Below are positions 1,635 through 25,127 of a DNA stretch of 25,127 nucleotides, piece by piece. The stretch is from the IMG/VR virus record IMGVR_UViG_3300047667_000901, positions 1 through 25,127 of that record; one strand, given 5' to 3'. The notes beneath the pieces are model-generated. The model did no database searches, was not told where the DNA came from, and worked only from the letters and a program-made list of their open reading frames with translations. The position numbers were made by a program, and so were the translations under genes. Numbering within the stretch: the stretch's first letter is position 1; the number at the start of each line of letters is the position of its first letter. This DNA is from a virus.

Positions 1635-2313
1635 CTTCATAAGCCATTACATCTGCAACCACATCCTCATTCAGATAGTTTAGCATTAACATATAGCGAC
1701 TACTAAGTCCGTTATTTGGCATTTGTGAATGTAATACCCGTGTATCCCATATGACAACATCCCCGTATTTAAGTCTGGGCTGAGTAAATTTTGATAGAAA
1801 TTCTGATGTATAATCGCCACGGTAACATTTTTTGATATCCCAATATTTGTTTTGACTGCCTGATAAGAATGCTGTTGTACCACTATCAATAGCAAAATTA
1901 TGCAATGGTGCAGCCACTTGAATACCCAGTAGCCGTGAATCGTTATTCCAGGGCAGATGTCTGTGTGGAGTGTCAACATGGGGCCGTACCAACTTACAGC
2001 CTGTGGCAAGTACGCTAACAGATGATTGATAAAATATTGGACGATCTATAAGTTTGGCTACTATTGGGTCAATTGCTTGCCTGATAGCGGCCAAACCTAT
2101 ATTATCATTTAATGATGTAGTCCAGTAATTTGCCCATTGCACATTGGGTTGGAATTTATTATAGTATTTTCCATCTATATCATGGCCATGACTGGGATAA
2201 TCATAATCATTTTTAAAATATGCCAGTTCATATAACACCAATGGGTCAATCACATTCTTATAGGATACGAATCCATCCTCGACAAAGCATTTATAATGTG
2301 TTCTATTATCCAA
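1618..2313 (-). CDS. 2-oxoglutarate/Fe(II)-dependent dioxygenase, PhyH-like
   Basis: 231 aa. The non-haem iron triad is visible: H112-x-D114 in RPHVDTPH and distal H195 in TRVLHSQMPN, followed by R206, the usual 2-oxoglutarate carboxylate ligand. The spacing and a conserved KYGDVVIWDTRVLHS block fit the phytanoyl-CoA dioxygenase branch of the double-stranded beta-helix superfamily. Members hydroxylate small molecules, lipids or modified nucleobases; the phage substrate is unknown. The start appears to be TTG at 2313, because the upstream gene ends at 2306 and no ATG fits the N-terminus; AGAAG lies six bases upstream as a weak ribosome-binding site. It is translationally coupled to the DnaE-like gene by an 8-base overlap and converges with the plus-strand gene. 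Confidence 0.8.
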   Translation of the reverse strand: MDNRTHYKCFVEDGFVSYKNVIDPLVLYELAYFKNDYDYPSHGHDIDGKYYNKFQPNVQWANYWTTSLNDNIGLAAIRQAIDPIVAKLIDRPIFYQSSVSVLATGCKLVRPHVDTPHRHLPWNNDSRLLGIQVAAPLHNFAIDSGTTAFLSGSQNKYWDIKKCYRGDYTSEFLSKFTQPRLKYGDVVIWDTRVLHSQMPNNGLSSRYMLMLNYLNEDVVADVMAYEAMISS

Positions 2314-2872
2314 CGAGTTCTTCTATAATTAAATTCATGTGCAATTTAACTGCCAATGCATACGACACTGCATGACTTTTCTTAAAGGCATACCCTTCTT
2401 CAGTCTTGGACCAAACGTGCTGATTGACATAGTTCCAGTTCCTGCCAACTAAATTTCTCTTTGCTGGTCGGATCATAGCTAACACTGCGGCAAGCTGCAT
2501 CAAATCTTTGGGTTTCATTTTCTTACAAATGTCACTATGTCCACGCATGTGAAATACCATGTCACAGAATTCTTCTTCTTCAAGCAACTCCCATACTGGC
2601 TCACGATCAAGCAAGGCAAGCTGATGCTGTTCGTCACGTATTCCTTTGTATATGGATACATTAAGTACATCGATTTTAAAATACCCCAATGCCTCAGCCT
2701 CAGCATAGTCAATACTGCAACGACCGGTGAAAGGATTAACTGGGACTTCATGAAAATACACCCCTGTATTATGCTTTACCTTGCCATTATTCGCTACTAC
2801 ATGAGTGAACAATTCCAATACGCGATCTCGATCTGGAACGTCTATGTCAATATCAGTTACTGTTGGTTTCAT
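2306..2872 (-). CDS. Miniature stand-alone DnaE-like (DNA polymerase III alpha) protein
   Basis: 188 aa. The text aligns by eye, in order, to the catalytic core of bacterial DNA polymerase III alpha. Residues 6-12 TDIDIDV match the PDxDxDF palm motif; 64-69 YFKIDV match the KFDFLG motif; about 93-135 (WELL, FHMRGHSDICKKMKPKDL, then AAVLAMIRP) match the block around FQLESRGMKDLIKRL and ALFRPGP; 160-172 GYAFKKSHAVSYA match GYGFNKSHSAAYA. The three catalytic aspartates (E. coli D401, D403, D555) correspond to D7, D9 and D68, all retained. The PHP, thumb, beta-binding and tau-binding regions of the roughly 1,160-aa parent are absent, and the core is compressed. Activity is unknown; it could be a minimal nucleotidyl transferase or a regulatory derivative. 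It sits between two small genes with overlapping starts. Confidence 0.7.
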   Translation of the reverse strand: MKPTVTDIDIDVPDRDRVLELFTHVVANNGKVKHNTGVYFHEVPVNPFTGRCSIDYAEAEALGYFKIDVLNVSIYKGIRDEQHQLALLDREPVWELLEEEEFCDMVFHMRGHSDICKKMKPKDLMQLAAVLAMIRPAKRNLVGRNWNYVNQHVWSKTEEGYAFKKSHAVSYALAVKLHMNLIIEELVG

Positions 2873-2873
2873 T

Positions 2874-3092
2874 TTAGTCCCATGTCATTTTGAATAATAC
2901 AAATAGTTCTGCAGTAACTCCATGTACTTCAGGTTGCTTTCCCAGCCAAGTTATGTATCTTAGATCATTCTCGCTACACCATCCATAAAATTTAGTCAGA
3001 TCTGTTGGTGTGAAATGGCAGATGATCATTTCTGATTCTGGTATATATGTAAATTTGTCTGATATTTTAAATTCTTCAGAGTCCATTTCCAT
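2874..3092 (-). CDS. Hypothetical protein, 72 aa
   Basis: Start placed at ATG 3092, just inside the end of the upstream gene (stop 3095-3097), giving MEMDSEEFKISDKFTYIPES...; a second ATG at 3086 is equally possible. A longer in-frame reading to 3137 would only duplicate upstream coding sequence. The stop TAA is followed by AATG of the DnaE-like gene, so the two are probably co-translated. The protein looks alpha/beta with hydrophobic strands (MIICHFTPTDL, ELFVLFKMTW). No motif is recognised. Confidence 0.6.
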   Translation of the reverse strand: MEMDSEEFKISDKFTYIPESEMIICHFTPTDLTKFYGWCSENDLRYITWLGKQPEVHGVTAELFVLFKMTWD

Positions 3093-3094
3093 TT

Positions 3095-3352
3095 TTAAAA
3101 TGGTACAGGCTGGGCGGCTTGAACTGGGCAACCCCATTTATGGTTAAATCCAAGACAAGTACATGCATGCCATCCATTTTCTTCGTTTTCTTCTTCAGCT
3201 TGAATTTTTGCAATCCGAATACGTTTGGCATCCGCAAAGCTATCGGCCTTAACAAAAGTGCCGTCACGAAATCTGTAATATGGCTTTCCAATCTCTGCCA
3301 TTTTACGTTCGCATTCAGCCCATTCCTCGTCATCATTCCATTGATCATTCAT
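3095..3352 (-). CDS. Hypothetical protein, 85 aa, C-terminal Cys/His cluster
   Basis: The N-terminal half is charged and predicted helical (DEEWAECERKMAEIGKPYYR, then FADAKRIRIAKIQAEEENEE). It is followed by a HACTC...HKWGC cluster of three cysteines and two histidines that could bind zinc. The ATG follows directly on the TAA of the upstream gene. Function unknown. Confidence 0.6.
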   Translation of the reverse strand: MNDQWNDDEEWAECERKMAEIGKPYYRFRDGTFVKADSFADAKRIRIAKIQAEEENEENGWHACTCLGFNHKWGCPVQAAQPVPF

Positions 3353-3697
3353 TTATATATCCTTAGTCGATTTGGTGTTGTCCTGCCGTCTATTACCGTA
3401 GGGGTCAGGAGGAGGTGGGCGAGTTGTGATCTGCGAAGGAAAAGTATTTCGCCCTCCTTTATTAGTTTTCCCCTCAGTAATGGGTTGGTTCACTTTGGAT
3501 AGAGCTGGGCCGGTACCTCCGGCGTCAGGAAATCTGTTGGGTTGAAAATAGCCGTGGCCGAGATTGCCATTTTCATCCGGTGTAAGCCAGCCCTCATAAA
3601 TGGACATATTGTTTGTTGTTTGTTGTGCGCTTACTCTGCGGCCCAACCAATAAGCAAAGACTAGCCCAATTGCTAATCCAGATAAAAATTCAATCAT
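3353..3697 (-). CDS. Small membrane-anchored proline-rich protein
   Basis: 114 aa. Residues 4-19 (FLSGLAIGLVFAYWLG) form one transmembrane segment immediately followed by two arginines, the positive-inside signature of an N-out/C-in anchor, though orientation is not certain. The remainder is a low-complexity, Pro/Gly/Asn-rich tail including TTRPPPPDPYG. A good ribosome-binding site, AAAGGA, precedes the ATG by about six bases. No lysis or holin function can be argued because only one segment exists and the tail is long. Function unknown. Confidence 0.6.
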   Translation of the reverse strand: MIEFLSGLAIGLVFAYWLGRRVSAQQTTNNMSIYEGWLTPDENGNLGHGYFQPNRFPDAGGTGPALSKVNQPITEGKTNKGGRNTFPSQITTRPPPPDPYGNRRQDNTKSTKDI

Positions 3698-7283: not shown

Positions 7284-8846
7284 TCATTTTTTATTTCCTC
7301 TTCCCCCAAATAGCTTAGCTTTGGCAGGAAGATCCTGCCGCCAATTAATTTTATGTACAATAAAGTCATATTGTGCTTTTTTATAGTATTTCTTCCTCTC
7401 AGTGAGATGGCGCTTGCTAAATTTGGCACTTGACGTAATGTCATATATATTAACAAAGTCCTTGTCATTAGCTGTACGCAGGCCTCTACCAATACTTTGG
7501 ATAACACGGATGAAACTTTTACCAGGTTCCACTAGTACCATATTAAAGATCCTGGGAATATTAATTCCCACCGCTGCTACACCATATGTGGCAACGATGA
7601 TCTTATTGTCCTCCTTGGCAATCTCTTTATAGTGGTCGCGCCGTTCCGCATTCTTCATTTTGCCGCTGACAAATACTGTGCGGTCAGCAGGTAGTCGTTC
7701 CACCAAGCCCATGCCTGCTTTTACACGATCAACTAATACAAGTGTGTTGCCCTCATCTGCAATCTTAAGAATCATCGCTGCCATATAATCCAGGCGATCT
7801 GAATCTGTAGTGAGGTACGATAATTCTGACTGATAGTTGTCGTAAAATACATCATCTTGCATTTGTATAACGTCAATGTGACAGTTACTCAGCACACCAT
7901 CATCTTGCAATGTTTTTGCTGCCAAGTCACCCACCACTGGTCCCAGCCCCACAGTGAGTCCTATTGCAGCATGTTCTTCAGGTGGAATTGTTCCTGTCAA
8001 TCCCCATCTAATTGGAATGTTACGGAACGGTCCCACTAGCATTTTCAGCAAGACGTCAGCCTTTGCACCATGTGCTTCGTCCACAATAACTGCCATAACT
8101 CCTGCTGTAAAGTCCTCAAGGGACATGCTACTCTTACCTTCGCGGAAGTTTTTTTGTATAATTTCCAGACTCTGCCATGTGCAAATAGTGTGCATCTTTC
8201 CGTAATCCTTACGGTCACCAAAATACACGCCAACATCTAATCCTAGATTGACATAATCTTCTTCAGTTTGTGTTACCAAGCCTTTGTTGGGGACAATAAC
8301 AATTGTCCTGCCGCCGTCATACCCTGTTGCTAGTTTGTGCATCGTTAGCTGCTCACTAGTCAATCCCCGTTCCACCAGGTCGCTCAGGGCCGCTGTGATA
8401 AGCGTTTTACCTGCACCTGTTGCAACTTCCTGGCAACTTTTTTGATGGACCAAAAAATTATTGATAAGTTCAACCTGGTAATCGCGCAGTATTACTGGCT
8501 TACCTGCGGCGACATGGTCTACAGGCCATACACGATCTTTAAAGTGATCTGTTGTAATTGTGGCCATATCCATATTAAACGACTGGCGCTTGTCATCTAA
8601 AGTGATGTCATATCCTTCTTCAATAAGGATAGGCAGCATTTCTTCAAGTAAATTCAGATATGTTTTACCGCCGATTGCGAAGAAATTCTTTTTACCATCC
8701 CATCGTCCCATTTTGAAGGATGGGGTATAGTACGCAGAAGGTATCATAAACGCAAATTTATCATAAAGCTTCCGTCGAGTTGACGTTTCTAGTCCATGTA
8801 ATTTTGCATTGACCTCGTCTAATAGTTCAATTTTAGCTTGTTTCAT
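7284..8846 (-). CDS. uvsW: UvsW ATP-dependent DNA helicase (superfamily 2)
   Basis: 520 aa. Superfamily 2 motifs are clear: Q-like RDYQ near 121-124, Walker A ATGAGKT at 142-148, DEAH at 256-259, motif III LTGT at 283-286, motif V around VATYGVAAVGINIPR and motif VI QSIGRGLR at 450-457. The N-terminal domain with FKMGRWDG is typical of T4 UvsW, which unwinds branched DNA and R-loops and helps switch from origin- to recombination-dependent replication. Length matches the family (about 500 aa). A strong sigma-70 promoter lies 85 bases upstream. The ribosome-binding site is weak. In T4, uvsW is late; a sigma-70-type promoter here suggests earlier expression. Confidence 0.93.
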   Translation of the reverse strand: MKQAKIELLDEVNAKLHGLETSTRRKLYDKFAFMIPSAYYTPSFKMGRWDGKKNFFAIGGKTYLNLLEEMLPILIEEGYDITLDDKRQSFNMDMATITTDHFKDRVWPVDHVAAGKPVILRDYQVELINNFLVHQKSCQEVATGAGKTLITAALSDLVERGLTSEQLTMHKLATGYDGGRTIVIVPNKGLVTQTEEDYVNLGLDVGVYFGDRKDYGKMHTICTWQSLEIIQKNFREGKSSMSLEDFTAGVMAVIVDEAHGAKADVLLKMLVGPFRNIPIRWGLTGTIPPEEHAAIGLTVGLGPVVGDLAAKTLQDDGVLSNCHIDVIQMQDDVFYDNYQSELSYLTTDSDRLDYMAAMILKIADEGNTLVLVDRVKAGMGLVERLPADRTVFVSGKMKNAERRDHYKEIAKEDNKIIVATYGVAAVGINIPRIFNMVLVEPGKSFIRVIQSIGRGLRTANDKDFVNIYDITSSAKFSKRHLTERKKYYKKAQYDFIVHKINWRQDLPAKAKLFGGRGNKK

Positions 8847-8930
8847 ATAGTTTACAATTTTTTTATATATCGTCGCGGTTAAATACCACCATCTCCAATA
8901 TATCTATTGAATATATTGTACATAACGATT

Positions 8931-8959
8931 AATATACACTTTTTATGTATAGAAGTCAA
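8931..8959 (-). promoter_or_regulatory. Sigma-70-type early promoter for uvsW
   Basis: TTGACT (8954-8959), 17-base spacer, TATATT (8931-8936) on the minus strand: five of six matches in each box with ideal spacing. The predicted start near 8924 leaves an AT-rich leader of about 78 bases before the UvsW ATG. The 139-base gap 8847-8985 holds nothing else I can recognise. Confidence 0.7.
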
Positions 8960-8985
8960 TAGGTTAGTGCAACCATGCAGTTGCA

Positions 8986-9399
8986 CTAAAGATTTGTTGA
9001 GTTACCATCATTGACTTGCTCTGATACGATCAGGATTGACCGATCAAGAGATGCCGCCACGCCCAGGGCGCGGTCTTTATCTGCTTCAGCGATTTGGGCT
9101 CTTAGGCGTAGCTCTCGTTTACTGAGTAGGTTTAAGTACCAAACACGAATAAATCCACCACGAATAAACCTAAGCACAAATTTAGTTAGTTTGGAAGGAG
9201 GGGTGTAACTGTCTGAATCAATGAGAGTATTGTCGGGGCCTATTAAGGTTGCGACAATTTTTCCAGATCGCAGAATACTGGCACCACCACACCCATATCC
9301 GTTTTCATCATAAAGCTCAATACCAACTTCACCATCGTCGCAAACTTCAATGTCTATGCGTACTGGCCTTGACACGATTGGTGTGCTGTTAACTTTCAT
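8986..9399 (-). CDS. Hypothetical protein, 137 aa
   Basis: The start is placed at ATG 9399 (MKVNSTPIVSRPVRIDIEV), overlapping the end of the upstream gene by 11 bases; the longer reading to 9435 lies inside that gene. The N-terminal 90 residues look like beta strands (GEVGIELYDENGYGCGGASI), followed by a basic helix (LSKRELRLRAQIAEADKDRA). Last gene of an overlapping run of seven. No family recognised. Confidence 0.55.
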   Translation of the reverse strand: MKVNSTPIVSRPVRIDIEVCDDGEVGIELYDENGYGCGGASILRSGKIVATLIGPDNTLIDSDSYTPPSKLTKFVLRFIRGGFIRVWYLNLLSKRELRLRAQIAEADKDRALGVAASLDRSILIVSEQVNDGNSTNL

Positions 9400-9697
9400 C
9401 CAGTATATTGCCCGTTCTTGGCCTACCTGCTGCAATCCATGACGCTACTGCTTCTAACCAGTCTTCAGCCTCATTTAATTTATCTTGCGCGTCGTCGACT
9501 TCTGTTTGTATTTCAGCATCTGTCATGCTGTTGAAGGATCCGGCGTGTGCTGACCATATATCATTCATAGTAGTAATTTTTTCTGGTTTAACTTCGACTA
9601 AGGTATATCCTTCGCAGATAGGGCATTCTTCATGTCCTTCCCCATTCCATACTTCACCAGAGGAACAGCAATTCGTGCATAATTTATATTCAATCAT
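9389..9697 (-). CDS. Small zinc-ribbon protein with acidic helix
   Basis: 102 aa. The N-terminal LCTNCCSSGEVWNGEGHEE and CPICEG give two CxxC knuckles (C7/C10 or C11, and C25/C28), like a DnaJ-type or rubredoxin-like zinc ribbon. The C-terminal half is an acidic helix (EIQTEVDDAQDKLNEAEDWL). AAGGAT precedes the ATG by about seven bases, and the ATGA overlaps the upstream stop. Likely an early protein; function unknown. Confidence 0.6.
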   Translation of the reverse strand: MIEYKLCTNCCSSGEVWNGEGHEECPICEGYTLVEVKPEKITTMNDIWSAHAGSFNSMTDAEIQTEVDDAQDKLNEAEDWLEAVASWIAAGRPRTGNILDES

Positions 9698-17396: not shown

Positions 17397-20300
17397 TCAT
17401 ACTCCAAATATTTTCCGTATATCATACTTGCTGAATGTTTCGTTAACCCGAGAAATTTCCTGCTCCTCAATGTCAATTTTTTTATGTCCAACGTCGTTGG
17501 CTTCAGCAACTGTTCCTTGCTGCTTAACCACATTGATAGCAGACATAGCCATATGAACGTGTTGGTTGCTAACAGCCGACAGGTTTTCTTCCAGCTGCGC
17601 TAATGAGTTTGATAGTGCTTCATTCTGTACTTTTGGTGCCAGATATGCCGCCCATGCCACAACTTCGGATATTTGATCTTTATATGCTTGTGCCCCTGGA
17701 CCGTCGGGATCATCATCATCACATGATTCTGACAACGCAAAGCCTGACGTACTGTTCATAACCTGGCGGGCAAATTCCACAATGTGTGATTCACTAGCCT
17801 GTCGCTTGCGCATTGATTCAATAACACGAGCTACATATGGAAGACTTGCGGCAATATCTTCGTCAAAGTATGACATGGTTGTTGCATCTTTTAACTCATC
17901 AATGCGCTCTTGTGAAATATCAGCACTTTCTTTGTTAAAGCCTTCCATTTGGGTATTATAACCGCGTGGGGTAGACATGCTCTTTAAGCTAGAGCGTAGG
18001 TTAACAATATGCGCGCCTATTTCTTCACCAATTGCCGCGTCCTCAAAGAAGTCATTGCGCTTGTTTTTACGGTGGAATATTTTAAGCTCGTTGAGCTCCT
18101 CCATGATACCGTAAATATGCTGCCCAAAGTCATCAAACGGCGCGCCACCTTCTTGTACGTGTCGTGCCATCGCCTTTGCTGCGGTGATATTTGAGCTAGG
18201 AAACTTAAAGCGTTCGCCTTCTGCGTTCTCAATAAAGATACTTTCAATCTGACGTGTGCGGGCGCCGCGCTTTTCTTCGTCTACACTACGTTTGTGCTTG
18301 ACAATGATGCGAGCGCTTTCTAGTTGATTTACACTTTTACGGGCAGATCCTGCCCAGCCGCTGAAACCTTCGTTTACGTCTTCATTCATACGATCTCTTA
18401 ACCAGTCGTTATACTCTATTCGTGCCTTTTCTTTTTCTTGTTTATTTTTTGGGAGTGGACCAGCTGGACCTCTTTGCGACCTGCCAATTGCCCGGTCGTC
18501 ACCATATTTGTCGGCGACTGAATTCTTCCAGTCTCGACTTTTCCCGCTGCGCATCGCTGATGGATCTCCTGTCGATGCGTAATTGCGTTCTTTTTGCCCG
18601 CCTGCTTTGAATGCAGCGTCAAACTCAGCGCCCGCAGATCCCTTTTTCTTGGTCTTACCAAGCATCCGTGCTGCTCTCTTCTGTGATGATGACTGCCAAT
18701 TTGGATTGCCACCATAATCTTTTTCTAGTTTTCTTATTCCACTAGGTGAAGGTGGTAAAGAATAATCCCCAGCGCCGGGGCGGCCGAAACCTGTAGTAGC
18801 ATCGGTAGTAGATGTTATAGCACCTTGCTTCATGGCTTTTTGCTTTGCAGTCAATTCATTAATCTGTGCTTCTTTCAATGACCTTGTATTTAAGCCACCA
18901 TCAAATTTGCCGCTGAAACCTTCATGTACGGCCCAGGAGATTTTGCCATTTCTCAAGGTGCCCTCTTTACCATCACGATTCATATTATCGTCTACACTAA
19001 AGAGTGGCATTCCCCCTGGGGCAATACCATTGCTAGTAGCAAGGTCTTCTATTGCTTTTACCAATGACCCGCCCATACCCAGGTAGTCATCAGCGGTGGC
19101 AACTGGATCGTCATTTATGAATAACTTCAGCATATAAAAGTCTTCACTGTAATCGTAAAATACTTCCATTGCAGCGCTGCTTTCGTTTACGCCTTCGTTC
19201 CGTAGTTTCTTATCAACCATTGATAATCCAAACTTCCGTTTACGTCTGTCGCGCAGTGCAGCACGGCGATCTGGATGAAGTCTATCCATATGCCCATGTC
19301 GTTCAAGGTCACGTATAGTGTCATTTGCGTCAGTCTTCGCTAACTTGGCTTTCCTTTTATATGAATTCATTGTGGCAGTTGAAAGTTCATCAATCTGTGC
19401 TTCTTTCAATGACCCTGTATTTGAGCCACCATCAAATTTACCTCTGATATTGCCATTCTTATCTTTAGCTGTTTTATAACTAGTCATTTCACCAGATGGG
19501 TGTACTGCATTTTTCACAGTATATCCCATTGTTCTTGCTTGAGTAGCCCATGTGTTTTCATTGCTGAATGAGAGCCCAACGCCTTCATTCATATCATTGC
19601 GCTTAAATCCAGCTGCTTCATAACCTGGCCAAGTTGCTCCTGGATTAGATGCTTTCCACTTATTTTTAAAATTACGCTGTACAATGTATTCACGATCAGA
19701 TTGTTCTACATCAGCAGCTCTGGCCGATGGTGACATTCCTGTTTTTGTTTCTTTTACGTCTGGTCGGCGATTTGCCATATCAAGGCCGCGGTCTCTTTTT
19801 GCTACTGTCTTTTCTTTTTCACGGGCATTGCGTTTTAGTGCATTTGATTTTTTTCTATACTTTTTGCCATATCCATACGGATCTGGTCCCACTGGATCGT
19901 TTGCAAACTGTCTATATTTCTCTGCGCCTCCGCGGTCATATTCTGCGCCGTCTTTAGCTTTGTTGCGTTCTTTGGTGGCTTTGTCTCTGTAAGAGTTAAC
20001 AGTGTCAGCTGAAATTTCATCAATCTGGTTAATTTCGTTCATTGCATCATTATATGGTGAACTGCTTGGTGTTTTTTTATTCATAGTATTGCCCTTGTTT
20101 GCGTCGTCTAAACTTTCTGGAACACAGTTGTTTACGCGCTTGTTTATATTCTTACCTGTACCTTGCTTGGTGCCTTGCTTTTTATAGCCATCCCAGCAAT
20201 TAATTTCATTTATTTCTTCGTCGCTGTCCATGTGATCATTGTATGCCTTTGATGTCGCGGCCAAAATCTTTGCGTGGTGTGCAACATTTCTGAAGTTGCC

Positions 20301-20783
20301 ATCCAGTGCTGCTTTTGCAATATTCTTTGCGCGGTCGATCATGTTCTTTTGCAAGGATCGCTCATTCCAGCTACCGAAGCCAGGCACACTTATTTCGGCT
20401 TGGTCTTCTACTTGATTATGGCGTGTCATGTTTGATTCTCCAATTGTTTTGGCTTGGTATGCAAAGTCTTTTGGTTGTATTGATTTACCAAATGTCTTTA
20501 CTGTAAATTCAATAATGTGACGGCTTGCAATATTGCGAATTGCAGAAAGCATTGGTTGTACAGATTTGATGTCAGTGCCCTTGGATAGGTTAACAACAAT
20601 TTCATTTGTCGTTTCATCTACCACAAAGTTAACCATCATTTGAATATCTTTGGCAAAAATTCGACGCGCTTCTGTTGGGTTAGCTGTCTTTTTACCATCA
20701 TCAGTAAATAGAATAATTTTGTGACCATATCCTTTGATAACTTTGAAAAGTTGGTCTGCTATTTGATCTACTGATTCTGTCAT
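17397..20783 (-). CDS. Large mosaic virion-associated protein with shared cassettes (1128 aa)
   Basis: Start ATG 20783 behind AAAGG and a late-type box. Residues 1-115 form an alpha/beta domain (GYGHKIILFTDDGKKTANPT, SIQPKDFAYQAK) and about 820-945 another (SARIIVKHKRSVDEEKRGAR); I associate both with large proteins of marine T4-like phages. Between them lie charged, low-complexity modules: a 92-residue cassette (254-346) also found twice or more in the protein at 22700, and two copies of a GKFDGG-LNT-SLKEAQI module at 448-466 and 625-643. Short Ile/Val/Leu-x-Glu motifs (for example at 191-193, 254-256, 464-466, 641-643, 961-963, 1113-1115) mark module joins and resemble the T4 prohead-protease consensus (Leu/Ile-x-Glu). 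It sits directly after TerL. A capsid-interior or scaffold-associated role is inference; no enzymatic motif is seen. Confidence 0.7.
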   Translation of the reverse strand: MTESVDQIADQLFKVIKGYGHKIILFTDDGKKTANPTEARRIFAKDIQMMVNFVVDETTNEIVVNLSKGTDIKSVQPMLSAIRNIASRHIIEFTVKTFGKSIQPKDFAYQAKTIGESNMTRHNQVEDQAEISVPGFGSWNERSLQKNMIDRAKNIAKAALDGNFRNVAHHAKILAATSKAYNDHMDSDEEINEINCWDGYKKQGTKQGTGKNINKRVNNCVPESLDDANKGNTMNKKTPSSSPYNDAMNEINQIDEISADTVNSYRDKATKERNKAKDGAEYDRGGAEKYRQFANDPVGPDPYGYGKKYRKKSNALKRNAREKEKTVAKRDRGLDMANRRPDVKETKTGMSPSARAADVEQSDREYIVQRNFKNKWKASNPGATWPGYEAAGFKRNDMNEGVGLSFSNENTWATQARTMGYTVKNAVHPSGEMTSYKTAKDKNGNIRGKFDGGSNTGSLKEAQIDELSTATMNSYKRKAKLAKTDANDTIRDLERHGHMDRLHPDRRAALRDRRKRKFGLSMVDKKLRNEGVNESSAAMEVFYDYSEDFYMLKLFINDDPVATADDYLGMGGSLVKAIEDLATSNGIAPGGMPLFSVDDNMNRDGKEGTLRNGKISWAVHEGFSGKFDGGLNTRSLKEAQINELTAKQKAMKQGAITSTTDATTGFGRPGAGDYSLPPSPSGIRKLEKDYGGNPNWQSSSQKRAARMLGKTKKKGSAGAEFDAAFKAGGQKERNYASTGDPSAMRSGKSRDWKNSVADKYGDDRAIGRSQRGPAGPLPKNKQEKEKARIEYNDWLRDRMNEDVNEGFSGWAGSARKSVNQLESARIIVKHKRSVDEEKRGARTRQIESIFIENAEGERFKFPSSNITAAKAMARHVQEGGAPFDDFGQHIYGIMEELNELKIFHRKNKRNDFFEDAAIGEEIGAHIVNLRSSLKSMSTPRGYNTQMEGFNKESADISQERIDELKDATTMSYFDEDIAASLPYVARVIESMRKRQASESHIVEFARQVMNSTSGFALSESCDDDDPDGPGAQAYKDQISEVVAWAAYLAPKVQNEALSNSLAQLEENLSAVSNQHVHMAMSAINVVKQQGTVAEANDVGHKKIDIEEQEISRVNETFSKYDIRKIFGV
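18851..18917. repeat. Cassette C copy 1 (KFDGG module)
   Basis: Encodes GKFDGGLNTRSLKEAQINEL in the 1128-aa protein; about 67 bases almost identical to 19383-19447. Both copies end in the Ile-x-Glu motif. Confidence 0.8.
19383..19447. repeat. Cassette C copy 2 (KFDGG module)
   Basis: Encodes GKFDGGSNTGSLKEAQIDEL. Only a few base differences from copy 1, about 470 bases away, so deletion or duplication by recombination between them is possible. Confidence 0.8.
19751..20026. repeat. Cassette A copy 1 (about 275 bases)
   Basis: Encodes IDEISADTVNSYRDKATKER through DMANRRPDVKE in the 1128-aa protein. Near-identical at the DNA level to copies at 23893-24167 and 24940-25127 in the neighbouring gene, with scattered substitutions only. 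Confidence 0.9.
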
Positions 20784-20808
20784 TTGAATACCTTTGTTAT
20801 TGCAATGT

Positions 20809-20816
20809 TATTTATC
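20809..20816 (-). promoter_or_regulatory. Late-type promoter octamer GATAAATA for the 1128-aa gene
   Basis: In the 64-base gap after terL. It ends 25 bases before the ATG, predicting a leader of about 19 bases that just includes the AAAGG ribosome site, the geometry of a T4 late gene. Confidence 0.6.
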
Positions 20817-20847
20817 GCAGGACTATAGATTTATAATGGTCAGTTAA

Positions 20848-22404
20848 TTAAAGAAATCCTACAGGCATTGGGCGGCGAAGTTCTGAGTCATCAAAACTAT
20901 CCTTTAGGTCTGCAAACACTTCTTGGTCATATTTTGCAACCTGCATCGCCATGCGTATCGCCAGAATGGTTGCCATAACAAGGTCATCTGTTTCACCGTC
21001 CTTTGCTGCATAAGTGTTGCCTTTTGCCACAAACGTCTTGAGTTCTCGTGTAAGATTCTTACTGCGAATCTTCATAGTATCTTCCTCAATCCAACGCTTT
21101 AGCTTGGCGCATGATGCTAGCTTTGATGAATGTGTTGTGTTGAACCCTTTTCTAAATGAACGGGCTTTGCCGCGCTTCTTTGGTTCACTAAGGAACGTGC
21201 CAGGAATGTTTTCTTCGCCCATTTCTTCAATTGAGATCAGCGCTGCTTCACCCAATGTATTGTTTTCCACACTATAGTATATTTCACTATTTGGTGCGGC
21301 TTCTTCTATTTCTTCCAATATGCTCTTCATAATTTTAATCTGCATTTGTATTGGTGTCTTGTTATGTTGCCATTCGCCGATTTGACGCATTCCTGGGATA
21401 GCAAATATTTGTATGGCTGACGGGTCACCACCAGTACCCAAGCTGGGATCTAAAGATACCAGATAAGTTTGTTCGTCACGGATTCGATCATACCAACGTA
21501 CTTGGCCGCATTTGCGTACTGGGTCCATTCCAAGATCCATTTCGCTAAGGAACAATGAACTCACCAATGTTTCGTCAAACGCAATGAATTCACATTCGTG
21601 CTCACGGCGGAAACGCTCTTCACCAATTTTAGCCCGCTCTTCATCAGCCCATGCTGCATCACGGTCTGGGTGTGCGTCCCATTTGGCAAGGTATGGTTTA
21701 AATCCATTTACTCCAACTTCAGTTTCATTACCAAACTCATCAGAACGTTTATTGGCTTGTTTCCAAATACGTGCAAATTGGTCGTCGTCCTGGTTGGGAG
21801 TAGATGTAATAATACATTTACCACCTGTTGATAATGTTGGTGATATAGATGTCCAAAATTCTTGTGCAACACGTGGCGGAACAAACGCAAATTCGTCCAA
21901 GTAAACCAGTGACAATGACAGACCACGTCCAGTATTTTCTGTGGTTGCTTGTGCAATAATTTTGCTGCCGTTATCGAACTCGATAGAGCCCTTGTTGTAC
22001 GCTGTCACGCCCGCTCTGACACTGTCTGGGCAAGACTCGTACATGTAGCGCAGACGTGACATGATCTCGCCTGCGCCTTCACGTTTATGTGCTGCTACTA
22101 ATATTGTTGCATCTGGAGTAAACATGGCAAACCATAATAGGTATGCAGCCGCGCATGTAGATTTACCAGTCTGGCGCGATAACAGACTGATGGAATATCT
22201 GTAATCATTGTATGAGTTAATTAGATCTTCTTGGTAATCAAACAAGTCAAAGGGCAAGCGTCCTTTTGTAGGATGCTGAATATAACAATAATTGCGAATA
22301 AAGTACATGGGGCTAATTGAACATAGCGCCAATTCTCTAAGCTTGTCTCGCTGTAATGTTTCTGTTTGATACGGTTTTTTAACAAGATCTGTATTAATTG
22401 ACAT
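20848..22404 (-). CDS. 17: Terminase large subunit (gp17-type packaging ATPase/nuclease)
   Basis: 518 aa. ATPase domain: Q-motif-like FDYQ near 55-58, Walker A SRQTGKST at 76-83, Walker B VYLDE at 167-171, coupling motif STPN at 201-204. Nuclease domain of RNase H fold: first acidic residue D319 in LVSLDPSLGTGG, later acid in the VENNTLGEA region, last acid in the ETDDLVMATIL block near 487-497. T4 gp17 is longer (610 aa), mainly through extra termini. It cuts concatemers and pumps DNA into proheads through the portal. Upstream by 11 bases is the 94-aa gene. Downstream is the 1128-aa mosaic gene. Confidence 0.95.
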   Translation of the reverse strand: MSINTDLVKKPYQTETLQRDKLRELALCSISPMYFIRNYCYIQHPTKGRLPFDLFDYQEDLINSYNDYRYSISLLSRQTGKSTCAAAYLLWFAMFTPDATILVAAHKREGAGEIMSRLRYMYESCPDSVRAGVTAYNKGSIEFDNGSKIIAQATTENTGRGLSLSLVYLDEFAFVPPRVAQEFWTSISPTLSTGGKCIITSTPNQDDDQFARIWKQANKRSDEFGNETEVGVNGFKPYLAKWDAHPDRDAAWADEERAKIGEERFRREHECEFIAFDETLVSSLFLSEMDLGMDPVRKCGQVRWYDRIRDEQTYLVSLDPSLGTGGDPSAIQIFAIPGMRQIGEWQHNKTPIQMQIKIMKSILEEIEEAAPNSEIYYSVENNTLGEAALISIEEMGEENIPGTFLSEPKKRGKARSFRKGFNTTHSSKLASCAKLKRWIEEDTMKIRSKNLTRELKTFVAKGNTYAAKDGETDDLVMATILAIRMAMQVAKYDQEVFADLKDSFDDSELRRPMPVGFL

Positions 22405-22415
22405 GCTGCTACTCG

Positions 22416-22700
22416 CTACTTCAAACCTGCGAGGCGCTTAACACTTTCAAGTACTGGATCTGCTTGTTCGTATGTGTTATCCAAATGTCGTAATGCGCCT
22501 TCTTCTACACCCTCAAGTGCAGAAAATAAATGGGTAAGTGCTGCGCGTACTTCGCCAAGCGGAGCAGTATCCCCACCGATCTCCATAATATGCCGATCCA
22601 AGAAGCCATCTACCCCATAGGTTTTTTCGATGCGCTCAACGTAGCTCATATCTCTGGATAATACTTTATCAATAGCACGTATTGAATGTTGTTCTGACAT
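22416..22700 (-). CDS. Small protein upstream of terL, possible small terminase by position
   Basis: 94 aa, helical and acidic (RAIDKVLSRDMSYVERIEKT, LGEVRAALTHLFSALEGVEE, then PVLESVKRLAGLK). In T4 the small terminase gp16 is immediately upstream of gp17, and small terminases are helical oligomers with a coiled-coil core, so position and composition fit. The usual length is 160 or more residues and no helix-turn-helix is obvious, so this may be unrelated. The TAATG start overlaps the stop of the upstream mosaic gene. Confidence 0.4.
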   Translation of the reverse strand: MSEQHSIRAIDKVLSRDMSYVERIEKTYGVDGFLDRHIMEIGGDTAPLGEVRAALTHLFSALEGVEEGALRHLDNTYEQADPVLESVKRLAGLK

Positions 22701-25127
22701 TATGCTTTTCCTCTGGATCTTTTAAATTTATTGTATGATTCAGTTAAGCTTTTGGCAGTTATATTATTTTCAGCAACAGTAACTTTTCCTGGGGTAGCAT
22801 TAATATATCGGCGCAGGCTTAAATCAACGGTTTCGCCTTCTGGCTGGGACATAACATGACCTTTATCGTCATATTGTTGATAAACACTGTTTGCCCATTC
22901 ACGCATTTGCTGAGACTCATTCTTTACCATGCTATCATATCCTGCCAACCATGCATCTAAGTATGGGCGTTGATCAAATGAATCTGCGCCACGCATGCCG
23001 TCTTTGTTCATTAAGTGCATTAGACGTGGGTCAGATGTAGGTGCACGTTTATGGTCCTTATGAGCAGACTTACCTAAGCTTTTTGCATCAGTAATGCCCT
23101 CACTGAGTTCAGTCTCGTCCTTGTCATCTGCCCAATCAGGTATACCATCACCATCAGCGTCTGGCTTTTTTGCTTCATTGACAGCTCTAAAGTTGTACTT
23201 GTCATAGAGAATGTCCAAAACGTCATCAATAAATTCTCTGTCAGTCGCAAGTATTTTTTGATCATCGGATGAACTCAGAATTCGTTTAATAGCTGTAATC
23301 TGATTATACCGGTGTGCATCAGGGTTAAGTTTGGCCGCTACTTTTTTAGCAATATTGTCTTGGGTCATCATTGCTTTGCCTGCTTCGTCAATTTCTTTGT
23401 CCCATGGTGCTTTTTTGACGGACACTTTTTTCTTGGGTGCGTTATTGAGACCAGCAAGGGCAGACATGCGGGCAATTTCGCTATCTTCGTCTGATGCTTC
23501 GTTGAATTCTTCTGATTCGGCAACGCCTCTTGTTGAATTGTTACACTTGGGGCAGAAATCGTTGTTCTTCTGCCATGCTTTGGCAGTTGATACTTCATCA
23601 CATTCCAAGCAAGCAATCTTGGCAACAGCTTCTGCCAATGAGGATTCTGGAATCTCTACAACTTGGCCGCCATGTTGATCCAAAAATTCAATTGCATCAG
23701 TGTTATCAATTGAAACAGCAATATGGAATTCTGAAAGTCCATAATCTTCAGGAGCAGGTCCTTGGCGACTATTACCAGGGACTGGATCATGACCTAATAG
23801 GTCATCTAATTCATCAAATAACGCATAATCATCAGGCAGTGACATAATGTCATACCAAATGTAAGCTTGGCTATTATCTGCTTCTGCAATTTCTTTTACG
23901 TCTGGTCGGCGATTTGCCATATCAAGGCCGCGGTCTCTTTTTGCTACTGTCTTTTCTTTTTCACGGGCGGCGCGTTTCAGCGCATTTGATTTTTTTCTAT
24001 ACTTATTGCCATATCCATATGGATCTGGTCCGACTGGATCTTTTGCAAACTGCCTATATTTCTCTGCGCCTTCGCGGTCATATTCTGCGCCGTCTTTAGC
24101 TTTGTTGCGTTCTTTGGCGGCCCTGTCTCTGTAAGAGTTAACAGTGTCAGCTGATATTTCATCAATTTTGTGTGTTGAATCTTCTGCAATTTCTTTGTCC
24201 CAGGGTGCCTTTTTAACTGACACTTTTTTCTTAGATCCGCGGTCTGCGTTGGCCAGAGCCCTGTGCTGCGACTGTTCATCTTCGTCCGAAGCTTCATAAA
24301 GGTGTGCTTCATCGCCGCCGCAATATTGACCGCTTGCCTCCATGTCGCTACAAAAGTCTTTCATTACGATGGAAATATCACTTGCACTAATTTCAGAACC
24401 TAGGTCAGAATTCCTATCAGCAACCCAGTGTGCAATTTCTTCTACTTCTGGGCTTGCGTTCCGATATTCGTTTGGGGTAATAATGCGATGCTGTAGAGCC
24501 ATACGCAATATATCGTAACCGTCTATGCGATCATCGCTATCTTCTGCAATTTCTTTGTCCCAGGGTGCACGTTTAACTGACACTTTTTTCTTAGGAGCAG
24601 TATCAAGTCCAGCAAGGGCGGACATGCGGGCAATTTCGCTATCTTCGTCTGAAGATTCCATTGTATCGTCTTGTCGCTGCTGCATTTTGTAATCACCGTA
24701 TTCGTCCATGGCGGACATGAGGTCGTCATTTATTTCTTGTTCAAAACGATATTGATCAGCACTGGAAATTTCAACTTCATTTCCATTAGCATCCTCAGCA
24801 TGTAGATAAATTTCGCCGCCGAAGTTAACATCTGGTTCTGCCATCGCAACATCATAATAAACCGTTACTGGAACATCACCAGCTTCTGGAGTATCAATAT
24901 AGCTTTCGATTGATCCAGTTGGTGCGCTCTGGTTAGTTTCGTTTACGTCTGGTCGGCGATTTGCCATATCAAGGCCGCGGTCTCTTTTTGCTACTGTCTT
25001 TTCTTTTTCACGGGCCTTGCGTTTCAGCGCATTTGATTTTTTTCTATACTTATTGCCATATCCATATGGATCTGGTCCCACTGGATCTTTTGCAAACTGC
25101 CTATATTTCTCTGCGCCTTCGCGGTCA
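22700..25127 (-). CDS. Large mosaic protein with cassette repeats, 5' end beyond right edge
   Basis: The frame is open to the right edge; the GTG at 25081 is an internal valine, and coding text continues through DREGAEKYRQFAKDP to the end, so at least 808 residues are present and the true start is outside. It alternates globular stretches with cassettes: A (24940-25127 and 23893-24167) shared with the 1128-aa protein, and B (KKKVSVK-x-APWDKEI, three copies). Between them are an acidic domain with PVTVYYDVAMAEPDVNFGG, a four-cysteine zinc ribbon (about 23538-23616), and a calcium-loop-like DADGDGIPDWADD (about 23128-23166). Glu-ending tripeptides such as IAE, IDE, VNE and VAE recur at joins. 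A virion interior or scaffold role is inferred from neighbours and architecture. Confidence 0.7.
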   Translation of the reverse strand, partial: DREGAEKYRQFAKDPVGPDPYGYGNKYRKKSNALKRKAREKEKTVAKRDRGLDMANRRPDVNETNQSAPTGSIESYIDTPEAGDVPVTVYYDVAMAEPDVNFGGEIYLHAEDANGNEVEISSADQYRFEQEINDDLMSAMDEYGDYKMQQRQDDTMESSDEDSEIARMSALAGLDTAPKKKVSVKRAPWDKEIAEDSDDRIDGYDILRMALQHRIITPNEYRNASPEVEEIAHWVADRNSDLGSEISASDISIVMKDFCSDMEASGQYCGGDEAHLYEASDEDEQSQHRALANADRGSKKKVSVKKAPWDKEIAEDSTHKIDEISADTVNSYRDRAAKERNKAKDGAEYDREGAEKYRQFAKDPVGPDPYGYGNKYRKKSNALKRAAREKEKTVAKRDRGLDMANRRPDVKEIAEADNSQAYIWYDIMSLPDDYALFDELDDLLGHDPVPGNSRQGPAPEDYGLSEFHIAVSIDNTDAIEFLDQHGGQVVEIPESSLAEAVAKIACLECDEVSTAKAWQKNNDFCPKCNNSTRGVAESEEFNEASDEDSEIARMSALAGLNNAPKKKVSVKKAPWDKEIDEAGKAMMTQDNIAKKVAAKLNPDAHRYNQITAIKRILSSSDDQKILATDREFIDDVLDILYDKYNFRAVNEAKKPDADGDGIPDWADDKDETELSEGITDAKSLGKSAHKDHKRAPTSDPRLMHLMNKDGMRGADSFDQRPYLDAWLAGYDSMVKNESQQMREWANSVYQQYDDKGHVMSQPEGETVDLSLRRYINATPGKVTVAENNITAKSLTESYNKFKRSRGKA
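23389..23500. repeat. Cassette B copy 1
   Basis: Encodes EASDEDSEIARMSALAGL, a variable four-residue joint, then KKKVSVKKAPWDKEI. DNA nearly matches 24541-24658. Confidence 0.85.
23893..24167. repeat. Cassette A copy 2
   Basis: Encodes IDEISADTVNSYRDRAAKER through DMANRRPDVKE. About 275 bases; joined directly to cassette B copy 2 through the IAEDSTHK linker. Confidence 0.9.
24181..24297. repeat. Cassette B copy 2
   Basis: Encodes EASDEDEQSQHRALANADRG then KKKVSVKKAPWDKEI. The second half is conserved, the first half has diverged from the other two copies. Confidence 0.8.
24541..24658. repeat. Cassette B copy 3
   Basis: Encodes ESSDEDSEIARMSALAGL then KKKVSVKRAPWDKEI. Closest to copy 1 across its whole length. 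Confidence 0.85.
24940..25127. repeat. Cassette A copy 3, cut by right edge
   Basis: Encodes the second half of cassette A (REGAEKYRQFAKDPVGPDPY through NRRPDVNE). The first half presumably continues beyond the window. Confidence 0.85.

Follow-up and report, generated by a model that had tools for sequence, protein, structure and literature searches.

Two cassette-built genes flank a phage terminase

The window (25,127 bases) comprises an entire IMG/VR record and is a linear piece of the genome of a T4-related phage. Its minus strand encodes, in order, P0002 (which runs off the contig end), an ORF of 94 aa, gp17, P0001, a gp32-like single-stranded DNA-binding protein, UvsX and, further on, UvsW. 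The terminase large subunit (518 aa; 20848..22404, minus strand) is of the T4 gp17 type (Pfam Terminase_6N, 2e-18; phrog_36964, 2.6e-123). As a preliminary description had stated, two large ORFs flank it: P0001, with 1128 aa (17397-20783, minus strand), and P0002, with at least 808 aa (22700-25126, minus strand). By terminase and by P0001, the nearest cultured genomes are those of jumbo phages: PA5oct-like phages, RaK2-like phages, Atu_ph07, and Phosso. We compared the window with 80 IMG/VR loci that have a related terminase.

P0001 contains a conserved core

Residues 1-112 and 806-1128 of P0001 match phrog_13484, which is annotated as "virion structural protein" (E = 1.4e-37). The N-terminal part (20448..20783, minus strand) is a conserved folded domain with homology to 69 relatives and to the cultured jumbo phages (AlphaFold2 pLDDT ~90). 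The C-terminal domain (17397..18368, minus strand), which is defined by homology and by the core model, begins directly after VNE↓ (here and below, the arrow marks a candidate protease cut). In an AlphaFold2 model of the core without its cassettes (mean pLDDT 79), there are two folded domains, and the linker at 109-125 has pLDDT below 50. We propose that P0001 is built from these two domains joined by a disordered linker that would carry a prohead-protease site, [V/I/L]-x-E↓[G/S/A].

With tblastn, 58 phage records yielded homologs of the core, each encoded immediately after the terminase. The homology of both core domains, the position after gp17, and the synteny all place P0001 in phrog_13484. 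Cultured members of this family (PA5oct gp278, RaK2 gp112, GAP32 gp270, and 121Q gp5) are likewise encoded after the terminase and upstream of the ssDNA-binding protein and UvsX. However, the cultured versions that we saw from phages of enterobacteria, Vibrio, Xanthomonas, and Pseudomonas have 426-496 aa, with little or no insert. Two other cultured homologs are expanded as well: Atu_ph07 gp108 from an Agrobacterium phage (863 aa; L107 8925-11516) and Phosso 412 from a Sinorhizobium phage (976 aa; L108 6001-8931). Both contain many [ILV]xE motifs.

PA5oct gp278 is annotated as detected in virions by ESI-MS/MS. So is PA5oct gp281, which is encoded immediately upstream of the terminase, begins with the same LxxLAG type of leader as the proteins described below, and is the counterpart of P0002 by position; the annotation places both proteins in the virion. 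Comparing the core to the PDB with Foldseek gave no significant match, only viral homologs; a homolog in BFVD is named "Large polyvalent protein-associated domain." The earlier proposal that these proteins belong to the prohead is supported by the comparison with relatives, whose homologs were detected by mass spectrometry as virion proteins, and P0001 is very likely to be located in the prohead or virion.

The cassettes of P0001 lie at a single site

About 690 aa of P0001 are cassettes at one site in the linker (residues 113-805; 18369..20447, minus strand), and this array is missing from, or different in, the relatives. Among the 80 loci, complete homologs of P0001 mostly have 429-494 aa and lack an insert. 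In the closest relatives, whose terminases are 77-86% identical, the homologs range from ~440 to 885 aa, and the expansion is always at the same point. The insert has 0 aa in L003 and L014, ~45 aa in L006, 180 aa in L007, 350 aa in L005, 445 aa in L008/L013, and 690 aa in the window. Even at 84-86% terminase identity, relatives have 0 to ~450 aa of differing cassettes. Cassette content varies widely at one site, from 0 to ~690 aa if the window is included, which answers the earlier suggestion to compare cassette number among relatives.

Could these arrays be repeats that were fused by misassembly? The contig does end within a copy of a repeated module (module A), as does the related contig L105. 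But the two ORFs stay open for 3.4 and 2.4 kb, and contigs assembled independently from other samples have different cassettes at this very site. The P0001 gene is also large in cultured genomes (863 aa in Atu_ph07 and 976 aa in Phosso). Because independent contigs and cultured genomes expand the same gene, we rejected an assembly artefact, which is extremely improbable.

All of the cassettes of P0001 are on the minus strand. The first (117-193; 20205..20435; ISVPGFGSWNE...) is found twice in L007, and the second (194-223; 20115..20204; CWDGYKK...NNCVPE) is also found in L006, in L007, and in another gene of L105. Sequence comparison also identified a basic copy of module A (257-345; 19749..20015; pI 9.9, 10.2 kDa), a segment that ends with the first copy of module C (346-466, with module C at 448-466; 19386..19748), and a segment that contains the second copy of module C (622-643, with module C at 625-643; 18855..18920). 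Between these segments are a strongly basic cassette (467-534; 19182..19385; computed pI 10.7), which is delimited by motif sites, and a small alpha/beta domain with pLDDT of 65-81 in its central part (535-621; 18921..19181), which has a homolog in L005/L009. The last cassette (644-805; 18369..18854; LTxKQKAMKQGAIT...) has homologs in L001, L005/L009, and L008/G003.

The candidate protease sites in P0001 follow E116, E193, E223, E256, E345, E461, E466, E534, E621, E638, E643, and E805, and the predicted segments between candidate sites are 2-18 kDa. The cassettes had been described as often rich in lysine and arginine. About half of the P0001 segments fit this (pI 9.5-10.7), but the segments of P0002 are mostly acidic.

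We searched Pfam, PHROGs, and the PDB for the function of the P0001 cassettes and found nothing above chance outside the core; these searches revealed neither an enzyme domain nor a known inhibitor domain in the cassettes. No Pfam domain exceeded its cut-off in P0001, in P0002, or in the cassette proteins of nine of ten relatives, and the tenth had one match to OCRE. Scans with degenerate patterns for single cassettes, which reach close relatives only, found module A at one locus, residues 131-193 at one locus, and residues 535-621 at none.

P0002 and other carriers of cassettes

P0002 (22700..25126, minus strand) is the second cassette-built protein, and its N-terminus lies beyond the contig. 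It begins, at the contig end, with a partial copy of module A (1-63; 24938..25126), and it contains a full copy as well (324-412; 23891..24157). Three copies of module B were identified by sequence comparison: at 157-195 (24542..24658; ...APWDKEIAE↓), at 279-315 (24182..24292), and within 538-581 (23384..23515; ...APWDKEIDE↓). The only conserved part of P0002 is 736-802 (22721..22921; ...DLSLRRYINATPGKVTVAE...), which is found upstream of the terminase in many relatives. All of these features are on the minus strand.

The preliminary description held that modules A, B, and C are common to both proteins. Module A, of 89 aa, is: residues 257-345 of P0001 and 324-412 of P0002 are 93% identical in amino acids and 94.4% identical in nucleotides, and copies of the module share 94-97% DNA identity. 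But the three copies of module B (...KKKVSVKKAPWDKEIAE) are all in P0002, and the two copies of module C (GKFDGGxNTxSLKEAQI[DN]E) are both in P0001.

The contig breaks inside module A both in the window (24938-25126) and in L105 (5851-6158). Repeated cassettes seem to halt metagenome assembly, so long versions of the cassette genes are probably under-represented in public data. The end of L105 provides a likely candidate for the missing start of P0002, MNNQELKRLRELAGT...THQIDE↓ISADTV. L105 also encodes a pair of adjacent paralogs (50-1399 and 2046-3422), with a common N-terminal domain of ~250 aa and, behind it, a run of ~24-aa repeats (IKNPSPEVQMAAV...) that differs in number. They are a further case of a repeat protein that changes fast close to the head genes.

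Between P0002 and the terminase lies P0004 (94 aa; 22416..22700, minus strand), whose C-terminus is ...ESVKRLAGLK. Given its position and this C-terminal tag, P0004 is probably the counterpart of the MAHSKIDNTF... cassette carriers of the relatives. The tag L-x-x-[LN]-A-G-[ILVMF] is present at the C-terminus of 43 of 1116 distinct ORFs (0.22 expected) and at the N-terminus of 25 (0.16 expected). Proteins with LxxLAG-type tags are cassette carriers, and they include P0002, P0004, and numerous ORFs that precede the terminase in L001-L080. The tag may be a second signal for targeting to the prohead core.

In PA5oct, gp281 (L082 3370-4866) contains a repeat of ~40 aa twice (0/1000 shuffles), and there is a weak match to it in the C-terminus of gp278 (7989-9479; p = 0.005). 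This is only suggestive of a cassette that is common to both proteins, across the terminase, in a cultured phage.

A protease-like motif at the joins

In 69 homologs of P0001, the junction with the C-terminal domain has the form [hydrophobic]-x-E↓[G/S/A], and the residue that precedes the domain is always glutamate. Among 47 distinct junctions, E is found in 47/47, V/I/L at P3 in 43/47, and G/S/A at P1' in 47/47, while P4-P8 are variable. The P3 residue is V in 38/47 of these core junctions; I and L are found at other joins, and the T4 consensus is L/I. The motif is also kept in homologs that lack cassettes, with linkers of variable length. Cultured phages have either a single site (VSE↓S in PA5oct, ITE↓S in RaK2 as positioned by hand, and LNE↓S in 121Q) or a doubled site (IQE↓SLME↓G in GAP32, VTE↓SLNE↓G in Munch, VTE↓SLTE↓G in XaC1, and LSE↓SYLAE↓G in a Vibrio phage). 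The conserved site corresponds to E117 in the model of the cassette-free core, inside the very-low-confidence linker at 109-125. In the model of full-length P0001, all 12 cassette sites are in blocks with mean pLDDT of 63 or less (45 or less for ten of them), and the [ILV]xE motifs of the core are mostly in folded parts.

The motif [ILV]xE occurs 12 times in the cassette region of P0001, versus 4.6 expected from composition (0/2000 shuffles), and 16 times in residues 1-730 of P0002, versus 8.9 expected (p ~0.01). In these cassette regions, [ILV]x followed by D, K, Q, R, A, or S is not enriched. However, the folded core of P0001 is enriched in [ILV]xE as well (16 versus 7.0 expected), so the raw count is not specific and is insufficient as proof of cut sites.

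A measure specific to the joins is where modules end. We took the ends of local alignments between 83 non-redundant cassette proteins and asked how often they fall within three residues of the glutamate of an [ILV]xE, relative to random placement. The N-terminal ends did so in 134/468 cases (28.6%, versus 19.4 +/- 1.6% at random) and the C-terminal ends in 171/427 (40.0%, versus 18.2 +/- 1.5%), and for neither did any of 500 randomisations reach as high; the alignments and intervals are not independent, so the standard deviations understate the error and the significance is approximate. Control motifs were near or below expectation at module ends, with little or no excess. The earlier observation of Ile/Val-x-Glu at module joins is supported both by this excess in 83 proteins and by the invariant junction glutamate in the homologs.

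The joins might instead be seams of recombination at the DNA level, with short common words such as GTAAACGAAGGTTTC, in which case the motif would be a by-product of cassette spread. Some joins do share the words GTAAACGAAGGTTTC / GTACATGAAGGTTTC, TTGAAAGAAGCACAG is found twice, and the copies of module A are 94-97% identical in DNA. But cassette-free homologs as distant as those of RaK2, GAP32, and PA5oct retain the same protein motif, and we consider it improbable that seams alone account for the motif. The two ideas are compatible: being a cut site may be what makes a seam tolerable. From the sequence comparisons, cleavage at the joins is likely.

The protease, the capsid protein, and targeting leaders of the relatives

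T4 gp21 cleaves after L/I-x-E (PMC9026906). A gp21-type protease (Peptidase_S77) is encoded by G001, whose terminase is 86% identical, and by G004, G007, PA5oct, and RaK2. The preliminary description had suggested looking for such a protease elsewhere in the genome: near relatives have it, but it is not within the window, and we infer from the relatives that the source phage encodes it outside these 25 kb. Where T4 gp23 has FLTE↓A, the major capsid protein of the relatives reads LTE↓S or LVE↓N at the corresponding position.

In T4, a 10-residue sequence targets proteins to the capsid, with residues 4 and 7 for targeting and residues 8 and 10 for processing (PMC9026906). The relatives have an island of further cassette proteins between a gp16-like gene and gp17, and many ORFs in this island begin with MKTFTEYLKE↓G, MKSFTDYLNE↓G, MKKFTEYLKE↓A, or MKSLKQYLAE↓S; the leader of T4 ipII/ipIII is MKTYQEFIAE↓A. 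In the sister-gene leaders, these targeting and processing positions are spaced as in T4. The leader pattern has 30 matches versus 0.45 expected from shuffled N-termini, where one or two are likely to be chance and many are orthologs of one conserved gene rather than 30 independent events. Several of the leader-bearing sister genes carry the same cassettes as P0002-type proteins. For instance, a protein of L044 begins with MKSFTDYLNE↓GDQ and continues with module B (...KKVSVKKAPWDESVTE↓), and L053 has the NCCGAPIMDVYQGHGRCSDC cassette, which is also in the upstream protein of L032. The island protein that is conserved and has such a leader matches phrog_14802, annotated as "virion structural protein."

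We did not find the T4-type leader (aromatic or similar residues at 4 and 7, aliphatic at 8, and E at 10) on P0001, which starts with its folded conserved domain, or on the start of the near relative of P0002 in L105 (MNNQELKRLRELAG). With no such leader on P0001 or on the relative of P0002, the route of P0001 and P0002 into the prohead is something that we infer. By this feature, P0001 and P0002 are not members of the internal-protein family, though they may work in a similar way.

Another possibility is that P0001 and P0002 are never cut and are long multi-domain virion or ejection proteins in the style of polyvalent proteins, with [ILV]xE as no more than a flexible linker or a seam that tolerates recombination. 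Polyvalent proteins have multiple domains and are injected (PMC5512222), a BFVD homolog of the core bears the name of a polyvalent protein-associated domain, and raw [ILV]xE counts are raised in the folded core too. However, the core-junction glutamate is invariant in homologs that lack cassettes and have linkers of variable length, the same motif closes the leaders for capsid targeting and agrees with the site in the major capsid protein, and Pfam searches gave no recognisable enzyme domains in the proteins. We consider a lack of cleavage to be unlikely.

Proposed fate of the cassettes

The best explanation, to which we assign a probability of roughly 0.7, is that P0001 and P0002 are polyproteins packaged in the prohead, where a gp21-type protease turns them into small internal head proteins. 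The window phage and its nearest relatives have gained small modules exactly at the linker site, each with its own [I/L/V]-x-E, which would make P0001 a polyprotein. P0002, just upstream of the terminase, is a second carrier of the same build. Both would be incorporated into the prohead core. The protease would then cut behind the glutamates in the linker and in each cassette join, as the sequences strongly suggest, which would free the two core domains together with segments of 2-18 kDa. Of these segments, at least those that are folded or basic would remain with the DNA and then be ejected. The last step is the most conjectural: the ejected segments would act on the host, probably as host-directed or counter-defence factors like the internal proteins of T4. 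(T4 Ip1-3 each block a different GmrSD restriction enzyme (PMC12373910).)

Alternatively, the proteins could be cut as we propose, but with the cassettes as scaffold or core filler like T4 gp22, gp67, and gp68: they would build or size the prohead, become small peptides, and exit the head. In T4, gp22 is very rich in [ILV]xE and is processed to many fragments, and many of the cassettes are predicted to be disordered and charged. But near-complete turnover of cassettes at 84-86% terminase identity is unlike a scaffold, and relatives manage without any insert in P0001. Furthermore, some cassettes are folded domains or belong to families that are present in many other phages, and, judging from position and sequence, the relatives have separate gp22- and gp67-like genes beside the protease. 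Filler is rather unlikely, though less so than a lack of cleavage. The preliminary description's scaffold or DNA-condensing role was not supported either: the cassettes' pI ranges from 4 to 10.7, and one relative's cassette is in a family of 424 records.

That cassette (L032 6160-7824, residues ~400-516) is in a small family, phrog_1915, found in 424 phage records; their hosts include Mycobacterium, Escherichia, Gordonia, Caulobacter, and others, and the annotation, where listed, is hypothetical protein.

The fast replacement of cassettes between close relatives, together with the 424-record family, fits a changing set of host-directed factors better than a scaffold. That the cassettes are retained and ejected as cargo has about even odds; most fragments of T4 core proteins exit the head after cleavage (PMC9026906), and by analogy the cassettes might be discarded in the same way. 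More tentatively, the system as a whole could be a magazine of payloads. The cut site of a head protein would be the landing place for interchangeable cassettes, and these would circulate among several carriers: the head-protein linker, the LxxLAG-tagged proteins, and the genes with a T4-type targeting leader. One protease would free a changeable set of small internal proteins, which would be ejected with the DNA as host-directed factors. We put this full picture at somewhat less than even odds.

Relation to known systems

The closest functional precedent is the internal proteins of T4 (IPI, IPII, IPIII, and Alt), which are packaged cargo that gp21 cuts after L/I-x-E, with variable cargo behind a conserved leader (PMC9026906, PMC12373910). 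The sister genes described here bear an almost identical 10-residue leader. However, T4 has one gene, one leader, and one protein, whereas here the modules are strung together as a putative polyprotein; they occupy the conserved head protein's own cut-like site, and P0001 has no leader. Also, T4 has no cassette gene between gp16, gp17, and gp18.

The head and ejection proteins of SPN3US and phiKZ that are cleaved in the prohead are similar in that proteolysis follows x-x-E, with long propeptides and multiple sites (PMC10052503). They differ in their motif (AXE or S/A-X-E) and their diverged protease family, and no exchangeable cassettes are described for them. Polyvalent proteins also have multiple modules and are thought to be packaged and injected (PMC5512222). 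But a polyvalent protein by definition combines at least two recognisable enzymatic domains in a single chain, and we found no such domains in P0001 or P0002 with Pfam; the modules here are small and bounded by protease-like sites.

In the open-access literature that we searched, we found no description of a head polyprotein with shared cassettes. As far as we found, then, the preliminary description was right that no such system had been described. The principle of packaged cargo and a prohead protease is already known from T4, and the polyprotein layout of cassettes is a new variant of it.

If our explanation is correct, it extends the internal-protein principle of T4 from single cargo genes to the loading of polyproteins, and payload modules could be gained or lost without new targeting signals. 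The sequence rule that it provides (modules bounded by [ILV]xE, the capsid-targeting leader, and the LxxLAG tag) could be used to find many small proteins, in marine and other jumbo phages, that are probably packaged in the head and directed at the host. It would also become possible to test directly, in cultured relatives, what these jumbo phages inject.
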